64,000 bases of DNA from an uncultured bacterium (GTDB lineage: Bacteria > Acidobacteriota > Thermoanaerobaculia > Thermoanaerobaculales > Thermoanaerobaculaceae): the NCBI GenBank assembly GCA_937924755.1, contig CALEVZ010000055.1:1-64000 (forward strand). Direction: 5' to 3'. The notes under the pieces were generated by a model. The model did not search any database, was not told where the DNA came from, and was given only the letters and a program-made list of their open reading frames with translations. Every line of letters starts with the position of its first letter. The stretch's first letter is position 1. Positions 7,059 to 50,416 of this stretch are shown in pieces. The position numbers were made by a program, and so were the translations under genes.

Positions 7059-7087
7059 TTGACAACTGTTCGTCAGGAATGTATATT
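7059..7087 (+). promoter_or_regulatory. Sigma-70-type promoter, near-leaderless
   Basis: TTGACA at 7059-7064, a 17-base spacer and TATATT at 7082-7087 form an almost consensus promoter. The expected start point near 7094 is only about 8 bases before the ATG at 7102, so the mRNA would be leaderless or nearly so. TGAC and GTCA form an inverted pair around the -35 element (7060-7075). Confidence 0.72.
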
Positions 7088-7101
7088 GTGACCGTGTTCA
7101 C
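7088..7101 (+). promoter_or_regulatory. Possible operator: GTGA-N6-TCAC inverted repeat
   Basis: GTGACCGTGTTCAC directly follows the -10 box and covers the expected transcription start, with four-base arms around a six-base centre. This is where a repressor would block the promoter. The arms are short, so this may be chance. Confidence 0.3.
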
Positions 7102-7479
7102 ATGAGCCGCCCCGCCCCCCCTTCCGCCCCTCGCCGAGTCAACACCAGCTGGTGGCTGGCGGCGGTGCTGGCGCTGGCGCCGTTGGCGGCGGAGGTGGGC
7201 CACACCTGTCTCGGGCCCTTCCCCCGGGAGGACCGAAGGGGGCTCGCTGCGGTCGCCTCCCCGGTGACGGCGACGGCAAAGCCGCGCAGCGTCTGCCAGG
7301 GTTGTCTGCACCACCTGCAGGGGGTGGGCGCCGTGCCGGTGCCCCTTCAGCTGCCCGGGCCTGGAGGCGTTGGGTGTTGCCCGGCGCTGACAACGCTGGC
7401 CGTCGTTGCGGCCGGGGCGGTGCACACCGCCCCGGCGCGAGGCCCCCCGTCGCTGACCTGGCAATCCCTGCCGTCCTGA
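7102..7479 (+). CDS. Small Cys-rich secreted protein upstream of a TonB receptor
   Basis: 125 residues. A basic start and hydrophobic segment (residues 17-30) form a signal peptide or anchor. The rest has Cys36 next to His34, a CQGC pair (Cys65, Cys68) followed by two His, and adjacent Cys92-Cys93. The C-terminus has a second hydrophobic patch and ends near ARGPPSL. The overall plan (signal, central CxxC, hydrophobic patch, RxPP-like end) recalls small DUF2946-type proteins encoded beside TonB receptors, but this is resemblance only. A strong promoter sits directly in front and the receptor gene starts 72 bases after its stop, so the two are probably co-transcribed. A metal-binding or metal-sensing role is an inference from the Cys/His pattern. 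Confidence 0.55.
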   Translation: MSRPAPPSAPRRVNTSWWLAAVLALAPLAAEVGHTCLGPFPREDRRGLAAVASPVTATAKPRSVCQGCLHHLQGVGAVPVPLQLPGPGGVGCCPALTTLAVVAAGAVHTAPARGPPSLTWQSLPS

Positions 7480-7551
7480 TCACCAGGCCCCTTTCGACCC
7501 GTCTATTCGCCAACCGCGGCTGTCGCCGAGTCGCCTGAAGAAGGAGGAGCT

Positions 7552-9813
7552 ATGTCTTGCGTTGTCCGCATGGCGAGTGGCTGTCTGCTGGCCGCCGCCG
7601 CTGCTGCTGCCGCCCCCGCCACCGAAGAGAACTGCGCCGTCGTCGGCACGGTGCGCGGCAAGGATCGACGCCCCCTGGCTGGGGTGGTGGTGACGGCGAC
7701 GAGCGGCAACGTCACCGTCACCGACGCCGAGGGTCGGTACTGCCTGCCTTTCCAGGGCGGCGAACCCCAGGCTGCAACCCTGGTTTTCGAGGCCCCGGGT
7801 TTTTCGTTGCTGGAAATTCCCGGCCTCCGCCTGGAACCGCCCGCCCCTCGCGCTCTCGATGTGGAGCTCATCCCGAGCTTTCTGGAGGAGGTGGTGGTCA
7901 CCGGCACCCGTACCGAACGGCGCCTGAGCGAGGCGGCGGTGCGCACCGAGGTGGTGCCCCGCACCCGCATCGCCGAGACCCACGCCCGCACCCTGGCCGA
8001 CGCCCTGGAGCTCATCCCCGGCGCCCAGGTGGGCTCCATGTGCCAGAATTGCAACTTCAATGAGCTGCACCTGCTAGGTCTGGTAGGTCCGTACACGCAG
8101 GTGCTGGTGGACGGCCAGCCCGTCCTCTCCTCCCTAGCCATGGTGTACGGGCTGGAACACATCCCGGCCCGCCTCATCGACCAGCTGGAGGTGGTCAAGG
8201 GGGCCGGCTCGGCGCTCCATGGGGCGGGGGCGGTGGCGGGGGTGGTCAACATCATCCCCCACCAGCCGGCGCGCAGCGGGTATTCGGTGGAGCTGCGCCA
8301 GGAGTGGATCCACACCACCCCGGCCACCGCCGGCAACGCGATGCTGGACTGGGTCTCCGAGGACCAGCGCTTCTCCCTGGCCACCTTCGTCCAGAAGGAC
8401 CACGTACGCCCGGTGGACCTCTCCGGCGACGGCTTCACCGAGGTCAACGTGCGAAAACTGGAGGTGGCAGGGGCGCGGGCCACCGCCCTGCTGTTGGGGG
8501 GGGATGCCAAGCTGGCCCTCGCCCTCACCCGCGTCGAGGAGTACCGGCGCGGTGGCGACCGGCTGGATCTGCCCGAGCACCAGGCCGAGGTGGCGGAGTC
8601 GGCCCGCAGTCGGCGCACCGCCGGCGACCTGTCGTTCTTCCATACCCTGGGGCCGTCCATGAACTGGCGGTTCACCCTGTCCCGCGCCAGCACCTCCCGG
8701 GACACCTACTACGGCTCCGGGGGGGACCCCAACGCCTACGGCAATTCGAAAAGCCCCGTAAGCTTAGCCGACGCCCAGTTCAGTGCCCGCCGGGGCAGCC
8801 ACCTGTTCACCCTCGGCGCCTTCTACTCCGAAGAGCGCCTCCAGGACGCCCAGCCCGCTTACGGACGCCTCACCGACGAGCGCTACACCAACCGGGCGCT
8901 GCTCATCCAGGACGAGTGGTCCCTTCTCCCGACCCTCCAGCTGGTGGCGGGGGGGCGAGTGGACAGGCACTCGGCCCTGCGCGACGCGGTGGTTTCACCG
9001 CGGGTGGCGGCGGTGTGGTTCGCCTCCCCGGCCTTCACCGTGCGCGCCTCGCTGGGCTCGGGTTTCCGCGCCCCCCAGGTGTTCGACGAGGACCTGCACG
9101 TCACCCAGGTGGGGGGCGAGGGACAGGTCATCCGCAACCACCCCGAGCTGGAAGCCGAGCGAGCGCGCAGCACCCTGCTGAGCGCCGAGTGGACGCGCAG
9201 CCTGGGGCGGGGCTCGGCCATGGCCGAGCTGGCCCTCTTCCACACTCGCCTCACCGACCTCTTCCACGTCGTCGACGACGACGATCCACGCACCCCCGAA
9301 GCGGAGTTCCAGCGCATCAACCTGGGCGGCGCCCGGGTGGTTGGCGCCGAGCTGTCCCTGGGGGTCTCCCTGGCCGCCGTCACGGCGCAGCTGGGCTGGA
9401 CGATGCAGCGCGCCCGGCTGGACGAGCCGGAGCCCGACTTCGGTAGCCGCCGCATGTTCCGCAGCCCCGACCAGCTGGGACTGGCCATGATCGGCTGGAC
9501 CCCGGCTCCCCACTGGCGCGCCACCGCCACCGCTCGCTACTTCGGGTCCGTCGCCTTGCCCCACTACGCCGGGTACATCCTAGAAGATCGACTGGAGATC
9601 ACGCCCTCGCTGGTGACGACCGACCTGGCGCTAACCCACACCATCTCCCTGGGCAGCTCGGAGGGGCCGCGGCTGGAGCTCACCGCCGGGGTACGCAACC
9701 TCACCGATCGCTACCAGCGCGACTTGGACCAGGGGCCGCTGCGGGACTCTGGGTACGTGTACGGTCCCCGCCAGCCGCGCACCTTCTTCACCGCCGTGCG
9801 CTTCGAGCGGTGA
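7552..9813 (+). CDS. TonB-dependent receptor with carboxypeptidase-like N-domain and CxxC plug motif
   Basis: 753 residues. A signal peptide is followed by a carboxypeptidase-like regulatory domain (about 25-110) that contains two Cys. The TonB box region (LEEVVVTGTRTERRL) comes next, then a plug with VLVDGQPVLSSLAMVYGLE and EVVKGAGSALHGAGAVAGVVN, and a 22-strand-type barrel ending in Phe-Glu-Arg. The plug carries Cys164-Gln-Asn-Cys167 just before the LHLLGL strand, at the point facing the ligand channel; this is uncommon and suggests a thiol-liganded substrate such as a metal complex. GGAGG sits seven bases before the ATG. No riboswitch was recognised in the 72-base gap. Co-transcription with the Cys-rich protein upstream supports a joint uptake role; the substrate is unknown. 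Confidence 0.92.
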   Translation: MSCVVRMASGCLLAAAAAAAAPATEENCAVVGTVRGKDRRPLAGVVVTATSGNVTVTDAEGRYCLPFQGGEPQAATLVFEAPGFSLLEIPGLRLEPPAPRALDVELIPSFLEEVVVTGTRTERRLSEAAVRTEVVPRTRIAETHARTLADALELIPGAQVGSMCQNCNFNELHLLGLVGPYTQVLVDGQPVLSSLAMVYGLEHIPARLIDQLEVVKGAGSALHGAGAVAGVVNIIPHQPARSGYSVELRQEWIHTTPATAGNAMLDWVSEDQRFSLATFVQKDHVRPVDLSGDGFTEVNVRKLEVAGARATALLLGGDAKLALALTRVEEYRRGGDRLDLPEHQAEVAESARSRRTAGDLSFFHTLGPSMNWRFTLSRASTSRDTYYGSGGDPNAYGNSKSPVSLADAQFSARRGSHLFTLGAFYSEERLQDAQPAYGRLTDERYTNRALLIQDEWSLLPTLQLVAGGRVDRHSALRDAVVSPRVAAVWFASPAFTVRASLGSGFRAPQVFDEDLHVTQVGGEGQVIRNHPELEAERARSTLLSAEWTRSLGRGSAMAELALFHTRLTDLFHVVDDDDPRTPEAEFQRINLGGARVVGAELSLGVSLAAVTAQLGWTMQRARLDEPEPDFGSRRMFRSPDQLGLAMIGWTPAPHWRATATARYFGSVALPHYAGYILEDRLEITPSLVTTDLALTHTISLGSSEGPRLELTAGVRNLTDRYQRDLDQGPLRDSGYVYGPRQPRTFFTAVRFER

Positions 9814-41618: not shown

Positions 41619-42000
41619 CGCCTGCGGGCTGACCAGCCAGCTCACGCCCTGAAAGCTTTGCCGGTGGCGGCGCCAGCGCCGTGCCTTCCCTCCCTCTGGC
41701 GGGCGGTCAGCGCGCGGGCGCCGAGGGGCTGCCATTGACATTCGTCGAGATTCCTCCACAATGGTGGTGGGATTCCCGAGGTCAGTGACTACGACGGTAT
41801 GCTATCGGCACACAGCGGGGGCGAGAGTCATGATCGAAGTGACCGGGTGTGGCCCTGAGCGGGCCAGGAGTGCCGAAAGGCTGGAAAGCTCTCTCCCGCC
41901 TCATGTCCACTGCTGGCCAGGCTTGGGCTCGCGGGGTCCCCCGGCAGTTCGTTGCGGCCGTTCACCTGGACGACACTACCCCAGAGGAGGAGGAGAAACG
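41619..42000 (+). promoter_or_regulatory. 382-base intergenic region with promoter for the third TonB receptor
   Basis: No gene recognised. TTGACA at 41735-41740, a 16-base spacer and CACAAT at 41757-41762 make a plausible promoter, which gives a leader of about 230 bases. The leader is GC-rich and could fold, but I could not match it to a known riboswitch. GAGGAGGAGAAACG precedes the ATG at 42001. Confidence 0.5.
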
Positions 42001-44934
42001 ATGCAAGCGAGATCTAAAGACAACTCTCGTGCCGTCCTGTTCGCCGCCGGCGTAATTCTCGGGCTCGTCCTGGCGATCCCGGCGCTGGCGCAAGAGGAGC
42101 AGCCGGCGGAAACCAAGTTCAAGGAAGAGGTGGAAGTCACCGGTACCTTAATCCCCCGTCCCACCTTGGAGGCCCTGAGCCCGGTCACCACCCTGGAGAT
42201 CGAAGAGCTCAGCTACCGCGGCCTGACCCGCATCGAGGACTTGCTCACCGCTCTGCCGCAGATCTTCGCGGCGCAGAACTCCACCATCGCCAACGGCGCC
42301 ACCGGGACGGCCACCGTGGACCTGCGCTACCTGGGGACGGTGCGCACCCTGGTGCTCATCGACGGGCAGCGCATGTCCTCGGGTGACGCCTGGGACACCG
42401 CCCCCGACCTCAACTTCATTCCCTCGGCGCTGGTCAAGCGGGTGGACATCCTTACTGGTGGCGCTTCTTCGGTGTACGGCGCCGACGCCGTGGCCGGAGT
42501 CGTGAACTTCATTCTCGACAAGGATTTCGAGGGATTCCGCGGCGGTATTCAGTTCGGCGGCTTCCAGCACACCAACGACAACAAGCTGGCCCGATCCATG
42601 AACGCGGCGCGGGGATTCAAGGCGCCCGAGGGGGACTCCTGGGATGGCGCTGCCTTGAACGCCAACATCGCCCTGGGCGGCAAGTTCGCCGACGGCAAAG
42701 GACACGCCTCCGCCTACCTGGATTACCGCAGGAGCTCGGCGGTGCGCAAGGACCGCCGCGACTACACCAACTGCGCCCCCGGCCTCGGCGCCAACGGCCC
42801 GATCTGCAGCGGGTCGTCGACGATTCCGCTAGGTCGATTCATCGTCTTTGACAAGGACTACAACTACGTGGGCGATTACACCCTCGACCAGAGCGGCCCG
42901 GGTAACACCTTCCGCAACCGCACCGCCCTGGACGTGTTCAATTACGCTCCTTACAATTTCATGCAGCGCCCGGCCGAAAAGTACATGGGCGGCGGGTTCC
43001 TGAACTACGACTGGAACCGCCACTTCGAGGCCTACGCCAGCCTCATGTTCATGGATGACTACACCGACGCCCAGATCGCGCCCTCGGGCAACTTCGGCAA
43101 TACCACCCTGCTCAACTGCGACAACCCGATGCTCTCACCGCAGCAGCGCGACCTCCTCTGCACCTCCAAGGGGTACGCCCCCGACGAAATGGCCAACGTC
43201 ATGATCCTGCGCCGCAACGTCGAGGGCGGGCCGCGCGTGGCTCAGCTGCGCCACACCGCCTTCCGCATGGTCACCGGCTTGAGGGGCGAGATCAACGATG
43301 CATGGAGCTACAACGTCTTCGGCCTGCACGCCGAGGTGCGCTCCCCGCAGTCGTACAAGAACGATCTCAACGTGGTGCGTCTGCAGGATGCCCTGATCGT
43401 GGACGGCAACCCCAACGATCCGTCCACGTGGCACTGCCGCTCCGGCAACCCCGGCTGCGTGCCCTGGAATATTTTCAAGATCGGCGGTGTCACCCAGGCG
43501 GCCCTGGACTACCTGTCGATCCCGTTGGTACTGGATTCGGGCACCAAGACCGAGATGCTCGGCGCCCGCCTCACCGGCGACATGAAGGAGTACGGTTGGA
43601 CGATCCCCAGCGCCACCGAGGGGATCCAGCTGGCCCTCGGCACCGAGTTCCGCAGGGAACACCTGTTCGTCAACCCCGACCTGGCCTACCGCGAAGGTTG
43701 GGGGTCGGGTCAGGGCGGTCCGACCGTGCCGGTGTCCGGCTCCTACAACGTCAAGGAGGCCTTCGTCGAGGCGCTCCTACCTCTGGTCCAGGGCGCCCCG
43801 GCCGCCAAGGATCTCAGCCTGGAGCTGGGCTACCGCTACTCCAACTACAACACCAGCGGGAATCACCCCACCTGGAAGGCGCAGCTGGGCTGGTCGCCCT
43901 CCAGCGACTTCAAGGTGCGCGGTGGAGCCAACCGTGCCACCCGCGCTCCCAACGTGCGTGAGCTCTTCACGCCCCAGGGACTGGGTCTGGGCGGCAGCCA
44001 GGACATCTGCGCCGGCCCCAACCCCACCGCCACCCTGGAGCAGTGTCGCCGTACCGGTGTGACACCGGCCCAGTACGGCAACATCCTCCCCAACCCCGCC
44101 GAGCAGTACAATACCCTGGGCGGAGGAAATCCCGACCTCACCCCGGAAGTCGCCGACACCCTCACCGCCGGATTCGTCATTACCCCGTCGGCCGTGTCGG
44201 GTCTCTCCATGGCCTTCGACTACTTCGACATCGACATTGACAAGACGATCGGCTCTCTAGGCGCCGACGACATCATCAACGCCTGCGCCAATACCGGCGA
44301 CCCGCGCCTGTGCAGCCTCATCCACCGCGACCGCGCCGGCACCCTGTGGCTCACCCCCGACGGCTACACCATCACCACCAATCAGAACATCGGAAAACGA
44401 AAGGTCCAGGGCCTGGACGCCAACCTCTCCTACCTCATGCCCATCGGGAAGAGCCTGTTTAGCATCAACATGATCGGCTCCTACCTGCAAAAGCAGGCCA
44501 TTGACAGCGGTCTTTACACGTACGACTGCGTCGGCTACTTCGGCAACCAGTGCGGCATTCCCTCGCCCAAGTGGCGGCACCTCTCTCGTTTTGGCTGGGA
44601 AACCGGGAACCTGTCCGTGTCCCTCGGCTGGCGCTACATCCACGCCGTCACCAATGACGACGGCAGCCCCAATCCCGCGCTGGGCGACCCGGGTAACGTG
44701 GCGCGTCTGCAGAAGAACGGCATCTACAAGATTCCTGCGCACCACTACTTCGACCTGGCGGCCAGCTACAAGATCGGCAATGCCATCCAGCTCATCCTGG
44801 GGGTCAACAACATCGCCGACAAGGAGCCGCCACTGGCCCCCGGCATGCAGGACAACGATTACGGCCCGGGCTATTACGGCACCTACGACCCGTACGGCCG
44901 TTACCTTCACACCGCCTTGCAGTTCAACTTCTGA
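42001..44934 (+). CDS. TonB-dependent receptor (large, Proteobacteria/Acidobacteriota type)
   Basis: 977 residues. The signal peptide ends near IPALA-QEEQP. The TonB box region is EEVEVTGTLIPRPT; the plug has RTLVLIDGQRMSSGDAWDTA and VDILTGGASSVYGADAVAGV. The barrel runs to HTALQFNF with a terminal Phe. There is no carboxypeptidase-like N-domain, unlike the other two receptors. Two extracellular regions contain Cys pairs (such as NCAPGLGANGPIC and LCTSKGYAP, each near further Cys) that could form loop disulphides. The Shine-Dalgarno is very strong, and an intrinsic terminator follows the stop. Similar receptors import oligosaccharides, peptides or siderophores; the substrate is not known here. 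Confidence 0.93.
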   Translation: MQARSKDNSRAVLFAAGVILGLVLAIPALAQEEQPAETKFKEEVEVTGTLIPRPTLEALSPVTTLEIEELSYRGLTRIEDLLTALPQIFAAQNSTIANGATGTATVDLRYLGTVRTLVLIDGQRMSSGDAWDTAPDLNFIPSALVKRVDILTGGASSVYGADAVAGVVNFILDKDFEGFRGGIQFGGFQHTNDNKLARSMNAARGFKAPEGDSWDGAALNANIALGGKFADGKGHASAYLDYRRSSAVRKDRRDYTNCAPGLGANGPICSGSSTIPLGRFIVFDKDYNYVGDYTLDQSGPGNTFRNRTALDVFNYAPYNFMQRPAEKYMGGGFLNYDWNRHFEAYASLMFMDDYTDAQIAPSGNFGNTTLLNCDNPMLSPQQRDLLCTSKGYAPDEMANVMILRRNVEGGPRVAQLRHTAFRMVTGLRGEINDAWSYNVFGLHAEVRSPQSYKNDLNVVRLQDALIVDGNPNDPSTWHCRSGNPGCVPWNIFKIGGVTQAALDYLSIPLVLDSGTKTEMLGARLTGDMKEYGWTIPSATEGIQLALGTEFRREHLFVNPDLAYREGWGSGQGGPTVPVSGSYNVKEAFVEALLPLVQGAPAAKDLSLELGYRYSNYNTSGNHPTWKAQLGWSPSSDFKVRGGANRATRAPNVRELFTPQGLGLGGSQDICAGPNPTATLEQCRRTGVTPAQYGNILPNPAEQYNTLGGGNPDLTPEVADTLTAGFVITPSAVSGLSMAFDYFDIDIDKTIGSLGADDIINACANTGDPRLCSLIHRDRAGTLWLTPDGYTITTNQNIGKRKVQGLDANLSYLMPIGKSLFSINMIGSYLQKQAIDSGLYTYDCVGYFGNQCGIPSPKWRHLSRFGWETGNLSVSLGWRYIHAVTNDDGSPNPALGDPGNVARLQKNGIYKIPAHHYFDLAASYKIGNAIQLILGVNNIADKEPPLAPGMQDNDYGPGYYGTYDPYGRYLHTALQFNF

Positions 44935-47784: not shown

Positions 47785-48507
47785 GTGCCAGGGTCTCACC
47801 CGTCGCCCCCGCGACACCGCAGCCTTGCCACGTTGGTGTCATTCCTTCTCGCGCTTGGTGGGCCGGTTCTCGCGCAGCTCCCCCCGGCTGGGAGCGCAAC
47901 CTGAGTCGCATGGAGGCACTGCTGCAGAAAGGTGGCAGCTCCAACGCCTGGCGGGCGCAGACGGTGGCGGCGGAGGCGTTTTCTCGCTGGGCCGATGAGG
48001 TTGGACGGGATGCAAAAAACCGCGCCACGCTGGCGCGGTTTTTGGCCTTGTGGGCGGTATCGCTACAGCGCAACGACGACTGTGCCCTGGGAAGATGGCG
48101 GGCCGCGGAGGCGGCGAGCCTGGATTGGCAGGAGACGGAACGCACCCTGGCTCCTTTCCCGGAAAAGGATGCCCTCCTTTAGGGCCTGGCACCGGTGGAC
48201 GTGGCGGCGGCGCTGCGGCAGCTCGACGATCCCCCGCCGGGCTCGACTCCCCCCGAACCGGAGAAGCTGGTGCCAGTGTCTACAGCGCTCTCGGCTCGCG
48301 CCGGGGAGAGGGGGGAACCACCAAGGTGTTGGCGATAGTGGATCCGGCGGGGTTGGTGGAGCGGCCGATTCTGGCGGAGAGTTCCGGCCACCTGGGGTTC
48401 GACGTGGCGGTGATGGGTGCATGGCGGGAGTGGGTGTTCCGGCTCGCTTCCCAGGACGGAAAAGCTGTCGTCGGGGTGTACCTGTTGAGCGTGACACTGC
48501 GCTCGTT
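47785..48507 (+). pseudogene. Decayed energy transducer TonB (signal peptide, helical region, TonB C-terminal domain)
   Basis: Three frames together spell an Acidobacteriota-style TonB protein. From GTG 47785 a signal peptide (SLATLVSFLLALGGPVLAQ) runs into TGA; the next frame, from about 47880, gives a helical region (NRATLARFLALWAVSLQRND) and a Pro-rich stretch (DDPPPGSTPPEPEKL) interrupted by TAG at 48180. A third frame, from about 48280, gives a TonB C-terminal domain (KVLAIVDPAGLVERPILAES, then WVFRLASQDGKAVVGVYLL). At least two frameshifts and one in-frame stop rule out a working product. Its end is joined in frame to a receptor plug. Confidence 0.72.
48015..48043. terminator. Perfect 13-bp bidirectional terminator-like hairpin inside the TonB remnant
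   Basis: AAAAACCGCGCCA, loop CGC, then the exact complement ending in TTTTT. A GC core flanked by A5 and T5 would work as an intrinsic terminator in both directions. It lies in the middle of the former coding region. Confidence 0.7.
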
Positions 48508-50416
48508 GGGGGCTGATTTTTTCTGGAGTTCGCTGGGCGACCTGAAGCTCAATACCCGGGGTTTTTCCAGTTCTCTCAACCGCCGCGTCCTGGTACTGTT
48601 GGATGGGCGGGACGCCGCCGATGCCATGATGGCGGCCCAAGGGTGGCACGCTATCCCCTTCGTTGTCCACGACATCGCGACGATAGAGCTGGTCCGGGGT
48701 CCGGGTTCAGCGCTGCACGGGGTCAACGCCTACAACGGGGTTCTGAGCATCACCACCAAAAAGCCCCGTTTGAGTCTGGGGGGCGACCTGATTCTGGCCG
48801 GGGGTGAGTTGGGCGCGGCGCTCGCCCAGGCCCGCTGTGCCGTCTCCCTGGGCAACGACTGGTACCTCAAAGTCTGGGGAGGCCACGAACGGCGCGAATA
48901 GACCAGTACGAGCCGCGTCGGCCGCGTTGACTATCCCGGGGTTCCGACGGAGGCGGCCGTCATAACCCCCGACGACATCAACCGGGTTGCGGGCGGCGTG
49001 CGCCTCGTCAAGTATTTCGAGCGCGGCCGAGTGCTGACCCTGGAGGCGGGGAACGCGAGCATGGAAGGCCAGGTGTTTCAGACCGGCATCGGTCGCATCC
49101 GCGTCCTCGATTCCAAACGCCCGTACGCTCGCCTCAATTTCAACACCGGCGGCTTCAACCTGCTCGCCTGGTGGGACAAGCGTGACGCCGAGCAACGCAG
49201 TCTGCCTGCCGGCGGCCTGTTGTACGTTGACGCCTCCAAGTGGGAGGTCGAGATCCAGGGCAACACCCGCTTCGCCCGTGAACGGGGCCGGGTGATCGGG
49301 GGCGCCTCGTACCGCGGCATGGAGGTCGACTCAGCCGCCCCTAGCGGTCAGCAGACGATCATCGCGGCCCCCCGCTCCGACCACAGCGCCGCTGCATTCG
49401 CGCAGCTGGACTACGAGATCACTCCCTTCCTGCACGGCCTCATGGCGGTACGGGTGGATGACGTTTCTCTCATTGACCGCCGAGTCTCTCCAAAGGCGTC
49501 GCTGGTGAACCGCCTCACCCGCGATCAATCTCTGGGCTTGAAGTTCGATCGCGCCTTCCAACCCCCCAACTACCTCGAACGCTTCTTGGCCATCCCCGCT
49601 GGCCGCCCCGTGGATCTCTCGGCCATCGAGAGCGCCCTTGCGCCGCTGTTGGGGGGCGCGTCGCTGGGGTTTGCGAGCGTTCCCGCCCTTGCCCTGGGAA
49701 ACCAGCAACTGGATGTGGAGAAAGTCACCTCCTACGAGCTTGGCTACACCGCCGTCATTGGTGCGCGAGCACTGCTGGGCGCCAGCTACTTTCGCAGCCG
49801 CCTGGAGGATTTCGTCAGTGAGTTGCGGCCGGGGGTGAACCCCGCTTACGCACCGTACCGGCCGCCCGCCACTCTCCCGGTGGCGGTGCAGCAAGCCATC
49901 CTTGCGGCTCTGCGTCAGAACCTTCCCCCCAGCGTCTTCCTCGCCATGACCAAGCGATCCGACGGGTCGCCCATGTTCGCCCATTCCTACACCAACTTCG
50001 GAAAGGTAGATACCCAGGGTGTGGAGTGGGAACTGGTTCTGTACCCCCACATGGACGTAAGGCCGGCGTTTGCATATGCCTGTCTCGACTACCAAGTCAA
50101 GGAAGGGGTCGGTGCCGCCGAGCTCCTTCCCAACTCTTGAAAGCATCGCGCCTCCATGTCCCTGAGTTATTTGGGACGGGGCTGGAGGAGCAGCGTCAAG
50201 GTCCGGTGGGTGGATGATTTCCGCTGGTCGGCGGGGGTTTTCGACGGGATGGTCGACTCCTACGCGGTTGCCGATCTGGCGCTGATGGTTCGACTGGGCC
50301 GCAGTTTCTGGCTGGGGGCCCATGTCCTGAACCTGCGGGACGATGACCACATCGAAACCTTCGGGGGCGACCGCGGGCAGCGGCGTGGACTGCTCACCCT
50401 GGGGGTGACGTTTTAG
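48508..50416 (+). pseudogene. N-truncated TonB-dependent receptor with two in-frame stops
   Basis: One frame runs from mid-plug to the barrel end. Plug motifs: SSLGDLKLNTRGFSSSLNRR, LVLLDGRD, IELVRGPGSALHGVNAYNGV. It is then cut by TAG at 48899-48901 (after HERRE) and TGA at 50138-50140 (between LLPNS and KHRASMSLSY, where homologues read straight through). It ends LLTLGVTF with the terminal Phe of outer-membrane proteins. The signal peptide, TonB box and first part of the plug are missing; the frame is fused to the TonB C-terminal domain upstream near 48505. Apart from the two stops the frame is intact, so the lesions are recent, or the parts are still expressed as fragments (48998-50140 has its own ATG). 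Confidence 0.8.

Follow-up and report, generated by a model that had tools for sequence, protein, structure and literature searches.

A putative CruR-like, metal-responsive arrest peptide encoded ahead of a TonB-dependent receptor with a plug CxxC motif in a Thermoanaerobaculaceae bacterium

Two adjacent genes in a 64,000-nt stretch of DNA from an uncultured member of the Thermoanaerobaculaceae (contig CALEVZ010000055.1; here, the window) are read by us, at a probability of roughly 0.6, as a short operon whose first gene encodes a metal sensor and arrest peptide acting in cis and not a transport component. The second gene encodes a TonB-dependent receptor. By analogy, the upstream ORF probably functions like CruR of Bordetella, yet it is not assigned to DUF2946, and the two genes resemble a self-limiting switch for metal uptake rather than a two-protein importer. 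This reading builds on the architecture and spacing of the ORF, the synteny, a C-rich stretch across the end of the ORF, the invariance of a CxxC motif in the receptor, and RAPP-ending upstream ORFs in other genomes; on this basis we infer arrest, a role of Rho, which metal is sensed and what the receptor does. An aconitase gene on the opposite strand converges on the 3' side of the receptor gene, and the transcription unit is therefore limited to two genes. The features of the locus are as follows.

7059 to 7087, plus strand: sigma-70-like promoter TTGACA-N17-TATATT (TTGACA at 7059-7064, TATATT at 7082-7087)
7087 to 7102, no strand assigned: palindrome TGTGA-N6-TCACA, resembling the CRP/FNR consensus; it spans the predicted start point and the start codon and ends on the A of the ATG
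7102 to 7479, plus strand: upstream ORF of 125 codons, Cys-rich and putatively exported, read as a CruR-like metal-responsive arrest peptide
7294 to 7305, plus strand: CQGC codons (Cys65-Cys68), putative metal-sensing motif
7375 to 7552, plus strand: stretch with C exceeding G, candidate Rho-utilisation region (in 78-nt windows, C rises to 46% and G falls to 23%)
7438 to 7449, plus strand: codons for RGPP (Arg113-Pro116), which lies 44 residues beyond the CxxC and 9 before the stop; putative ribosome-arrest motif
7470 to 7550, plus strand: predicted pairing between the receptor GGAGG (7543-7547) and the final codons of the ORF, stop codon included (7470-7481)
7552 to 9813, plus strand: TonB-dependent receptor of 753 aa with CarboxypepD_reg, Plug and beta-barrel domains
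8041 to 8052, plus strand: CQNC codons (Cys164-Cys167) on a plug beta-hairpin, invariant in homologues

Architecture of the upstream ORF and its transcript

The sequence-only reading of this DNA had described a 125-residue protein with CQGC, paired cysteines and nearby histidines, followed after 72 bases by the receptor, and both descriptions were borne out. CQGC occupies residues 65-68 and is followed by His70 and His71 and by the pair Cys92-Cys93; the remaining cysteine is Cys36, and further histidines lie at positions 34 and 108. The N-terminus is basic and then, as judged by eye, hydrophobic (WWLAAVLALAPLAA). CruR is an exported DUF2946 upstream ORF located before a TonB receptor in Bordetella (PMC9426467). 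Copper is sensed by its CXXC, whereas the C-terminal RAPP, which CruR requires, serves as the arrest motif; the distance of 45 residues between the two is kept to within 1-2 residues (PMC9426467). Arrest by CruR was demonstrated in vitro, and RAPP and RGPP are the two arrest motifs effective in most contexts, RGPP being the strongest and giving the most stable arrest (PMC12992588). Like CruR in the cruR-bfrG/crtA-bp2921 operon of Bordetella pertussis (PMC9426467, PMC12914433), the window ORF heads a TonB-receptor operon and combines CxxC with RxPP near the C-terminus, 44 residues apart compared to 45. We counted RGPP together with RAPP as a CruR-type C-terminal motif, since DUF2946 matches from Acidobacteriota carry RGPP.

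A six-frame scan of the 64-kb window for C..C-N41-49-R.PP returned only this ORF, with CQGC-N44-RGPP, and a stricter pattern was regained in 18 of 400,000 residue shuffles of the mature part of the ORF. RGPP or RAPP near the ORF end also occurs in nine other ORFs of the window, by chance in GC-rich shadow frames. The motif alone is thus weak evidence, and we therefore placed weight on its combination with CxxC, spacing and position. The ORF also resembles the small exported RAPP/RGPP ORFs for which PMC12992588 reports an enrichment ahead of TonB receptor genes in every Gram-negative group: it is shorter than 300 residues (125), its RGPP (residues 113-116) lies near the C-terminus, and a TonB receptor gene follows directly on the same strand after 72 nt. 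Judged by sequence, it qualifies as a putative TonB-class arrest peptide with RAPP/RGPP, which is a known kind. PMC12992588 groups ORFs by the annotation of the downstream gene, and its accessible part holds no tie to one receptor family with an invariant plug CxxC.

Profile searches, which the sequence-only reading had proposed for both proteins, yielded CarboxypepD_reg, Plug and beta-barrel domains for the receptor and no family for the ORF. No family match to the ORF was obtained in Pfam (up to E 1) or NCBIfam and none in a PDB search with its protein sequence, and a protein sequence search of 60 relatives gave background only. A PF11162 search of the ORF's own genome gave no match. We also used a local DUF2946-type profile of 17 proteins (16 Acidobacteriota matches and the ORF of the Sedimentisphaerales locus L023), to which hhalign aligned the window ORF with an E of only 0.08. 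Membership in DUF2946 is not claimed because, with this profile, the ORF came out no higher than unrelated frames. A candidate identity with the HYC_CC_PP family (NF047658), which we assumed the ORF to resemble, was dropped, as the genome had zero matches.

Several differences from CruR were observed. In addition to not being recruited by the DUF2946 model, the window ORF has 9 residues after RGPP, compared to 3 after the RAPP of CruR, and the gap to the receptor gene measures 72 nt, compared to 162 nt in cruR-bfrG. Unlike in the cruR operon, no PepSY_TM gene follows the receptor gene, nor did we find one elsewhere in the genome. A stretch with more C than G across the ORF end and the gap is shared with cruR, where it is a signature of Rho-dependent termination; in the window it covers the RGPP codons, and its peak difference is matched by only 0.8% of plus-strand windows.

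Based on these features, we propose that a ribosome starting from the near-leaderless promoter would synthesize a short exported peptide and stall at RGPP (Arg113-Pro116). Under metal scarcity, the stalled ribosome would shield the 3' part of the ORF, which is rich in C, and bar Rho from RNA polymerase and, with Rho kept off, the receptor gene would be transcribed and translated. Binding of metal, most likely copper, to CQGC of the nascent chain would relieve the stall; the ribosome would depart, and transcription would terminate in the gap ahead of the receptor gene. The receptor would function as an outer-membrane importer of the metal or of a metal chelate. Copper is, by analogy, most likely the metal sensed. 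It is favoured because of the CxxC, the CruR precedent and the two heme-copper oxidases encoded by the genome, which indicate a need for copper.

An alternative that we rate as improbable is translational control as in CutF of Rhodobacter capsulatus, in which the receptor ribosome-binding site would be hidden by pairing with the ORF end and opened or closed by a ribosome whose position is set by metal. CutF has a Cys motif and a Pro-rich end and acts via a stem-loop over the ribosome-binding site of the next gene (PMC9973294). Like CutF, the window ORF is an upstream ORF, putatively exported, with a Cys motif, a Pro-containing end and possible pairing over the next ribosome-binding site: GGAGG at 7543-7547 is predicted to pair with 7472-7476 at a probability of about 0.99, and the gap of 72 nt is short. 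However, the whole fold is unexceptional compared to shuffles (z-score -0.92), and stalling at RGPP would bring a ribosome only to about position 7460, short of the pairing strand at 7470, and would therefore leave the pairing closed. In addition, CutF has CxxxC and a poly-Pro end, whereas the window ORF has CxxC at CruR spacing and RGPP. CutF controls a multicopper oxidase, and copper strengthens the CutF stall instead of relieving it (PMC9973294).

Promoter, palindrome and upstream ORFs in other genomes

The promoter has 11 of 12 consensus bases and is the sole such match in 3.2 kb, where shuffles lead to an expectation of 0.1; the exact TTGACA-N17-TATATT occurs as a single copy in the 64-kb window, and such a strong promoter is unusual in this GC-rich window. 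The ATG at 7102, located directly past the promoter, is the only one in the frame of the ORF. Transcription is expected to start at about 7094-7095, which would leave a leader of about 7 nt. The distance of about 8 bases between promoter and ATG given by the sequence-only reading holds for this expected start point and not for the -10 box, which lies 14 bases before the ATG. The repeat GTGA-N6-TCAC reported on the start point is indeed located there and is longer, TGTGA-N6-TCACA. Its assignment as the operator of a metal-responsive repressor found no support. The sequence occurs in 4 copies in the 3.35-Mb genome, and a pattern search of the genome found no metal genes among the sites. Two of the other three copies fall inside a gene or at its end and one lies ahead of an amidase gene, a distribution that does not support a metal regulon. 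The latter, which is the second intergenic copy (contig C58, 9470-9485), is located 86 nt ahead of a gene for an N-acetylmuramoyl-L-alanine amidase. CruR-type control requires no operator.

In a PF11162 search of 396 Acidobacteriota genomes, nine had matches that passed the cut-off and a further 32 had weaker ones. The matches examined have the layout CxxC-N43-49-R[AGS]PP; CruR/DUF2946-like ORFs with this layout are those at L094-L107, L111, L117, L119 and L120, and RGPP is found at L094-L097, L100, L104, L107 and L120. At L094, RGPP is followed by 9 residues, like in the window ORF. In the DUF2946-type alignment of Acidobacteriota, the only columns without variation are C, C, R, P and P. These ORFs head genes for TonB receptors, PepSY_TM proteins and CusC-like efflux proteins. 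Acidobacteriota are not named as a phylum in the accessible part of the CruR paper (PMC9426467).

Upstream ORFs also precede receptors of the same family as that of the window, or more distant relatives, in other phyla. At the Sedimentisphaerales locus L023, an ORF with a signal-like N-terminus and CAAC-N45-RAPP-A-stop is located just ahead of a receptor of the same family. In Parabacteroides distasonis, Bacteroides finegoldii and Phocaeicola massiliensis, the receptor with NCQNCGF in the plug is preceded by a putatively exported His-rich ORF:

L124, 5200 to 5550; L126, 5176 to 5553; L128, 3091 to 3462: Bacteroidales His-rich LRAPP ORFs upstream of receptors with an NCQNCGF plug

The three ORFs end in LRAPPVV, LRAPPAICLFAI and LRAPPAYC, lack CxxC and lie in low-GC genomes; family models did not recognize those at L124 and L126. 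What the upstream ORFs have in common across phyla is a C-terminal RxPP arrest end and not their Cys content. The His-rich ORFs of the Bacteroidales may sense another metal, because His-only relatives of CutF adjoin nickel/cobalt genes (PMC9973294). No such upstream ORF was found at the loci examined of the nearest Acidobacteriota receptors, and the receptor loci of Persicobacter and Prevotella had no upstream ORF of the RxPP type. The coupling of ORF and receptor is therefore patchy, and the expectation that relatives keeping the receptor would also keep the small protein largely failed, as the Acidobacteriota relatives have the receptor without it. Low-complexity frames with RGPP upstream at L037 and L086 were rejected as shadow frames.

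These data also bear on the proposal of the sequence-only reading that the pair forms an uptake system for a thiol-liganded metal. A metal-linked uptake receptor is plausible given the invariant plug CxxC; the part that does not stand is the small protein as uptake partner, as CxxC-N44-RGPP is the architecture of an arrest peptide. A metal-binding partner in the periplasm or at the surface, under control of a repressor at the palindrome, would agree with a putatively exported Cys/His protein adjoining a receptor with an invariant CxxC and with a perfect TGTGA-N6-TCACA on the start point. However, the ORF is missing from relatives that retain the receptor, RxPP recurs across phyla whereas Cys content does not, and the palindrome has no regulon, so that we consider such a partner even less probable than CutF-like control. 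A CruR-like regulatory arrest peptide need not persist as a stable protein. If the CruR-like reading is correct, small Cys-rich ORFs before TonB receptors should not be assumed to encode binding proteins. Least likely of all is an open frame that arose by chance in GC-rich DNA, with the promoter serving the receptor via a long leader: the ORF has weak codon usage (the best score among six frames, yet well under that of confident genes) and no sequence homologue, and the window contains many shadow ORFs, but the promoter is perfectly placed and directly followed by the sole ATG of that frame, shuffles rarely restore the architecture, and equivalent ORFs precede the same receptor in low-GC genomes.

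The receptor and its plug cysteines

Domain assignment and residue positions confirmed a TonB receptor with Cys164-x-x-Cys167 in the plug, and the motif, whose conservation among homologues had been named as a check, proved to be invariant across several phyla. Matches in other genomes were obtained by an alignment-based contig search. Of 149 genomes of the class, 25 carry homologues with 41-47% identity; none of the 16 genomes examined from its own family does. Apart from single cases in Sedimentisphaerales, Verrucomicrobiales and Ca. Eisenbacteria, the matches named belong to Acidobacteriota (Thermoanaerobaculia and Holophagae). All 20 aligned homologues, from Acidobacteriota, Planctomycetota, Verrucomicrobiota and Ca. 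Eisenbacteria, have both Cys164 and Cys167, and NCQNCGF is present at the equivalent plug position in all seven of the more distant Bacteroidota relatives examined. His516 and His671 are likewise invariant. In a structure model (pLDDT 80), the CxxC lies between plug strands 158-164 and 169-174, and it is likely a metal-contact or redox site. Three further frames of the window match the TonB plug profile (41653-44931, 47999-48898 and 33634-30689), none with CxxC.

The predicted fold resembles that of Cir, FepA and BtuB. The closest solved structures, Cir, FepA/PfeA and BtuB, share the plug-barrel fold at 14-18% identity in the structural match; unlike the window receptor, they have no CxxC at this position of the plug, and Cir has GDN. 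Like the copper importer OprC of Pseudomonas aeruginosa, the receptor has a plug cysteine, and in some cases a CruR homologue is encoded ahead of oprC (PMC8610252). However, OprC has a CxxxM-HxM site (PMC8610252), whereas the window receptor has CQNCN, and inspection of its Cys and Met positions revealed no CxxxM and no HxM. CrtA (BfrG) copper receptors have no conserved cysteines (PMC12914433) and are usually followed by PepSY_TM, in contrast to the receptor with its invariant CxxC. As CrtA lacks conserved cysteines and the OprC site is absent here, we regard the receptor as belonging to a separate family. On sequence grounds, the plug CxxC is the mark of an uncharacterised receptor family, for which a thiol- and metal-linked uptake function is plausible; a literature search on the letters of the plug motif returned no paper describing an invariant plug CxxC.

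We tentatively suggest, as a possibility less well founded than the CruR-like switch itself, that receptors with a CxxC plug form a dedicated metal-import family served by RxPP arrest peptides with different sensors, CxxC in Acidobacteriota and Planctomycetota and His-rich in Bacteroidales. If so, a single stalling device, adjusted to different metals, would serve one receptor family. Copper uptake across the outer membrane is poorly understood, and few copper TonB receptors have been characterised. If the proposed switch is correct, a widespread orphan receptor family would gain a testable substrate class, namely copper and perhaps another metal in the His-rich cases, and the regulatory device would reach beyond what the DUF2946 model detects.

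The neighbours of receptors with the plug CxxC in other genomes are mixed and point to more than one metal, with a DtxR-type repressor at one locus and a cupredoxin at another. The former is a gene for a DtxR/MntR-type metal-dependent repressor ahead of the receptor gene on a Ca. Eisenbacteria contig (L026, 291-806), which suggests control by iron or manganese at that locus. Other genes upstream of such receptors encode a plastocyanin/azurin-like protein (L024, 4904-5821), a Fer4_5 polyferredoxin (L023, 3637-4137) and an RnfD-like protein (L047, 4902-5696), hinting at a possible link to extracytoplasmic electron transfer. In one genus of Acidobacteriota (L003-L007 and L043), a small glyoxalase/VOC-like gene regularly precedes the receptor gene.
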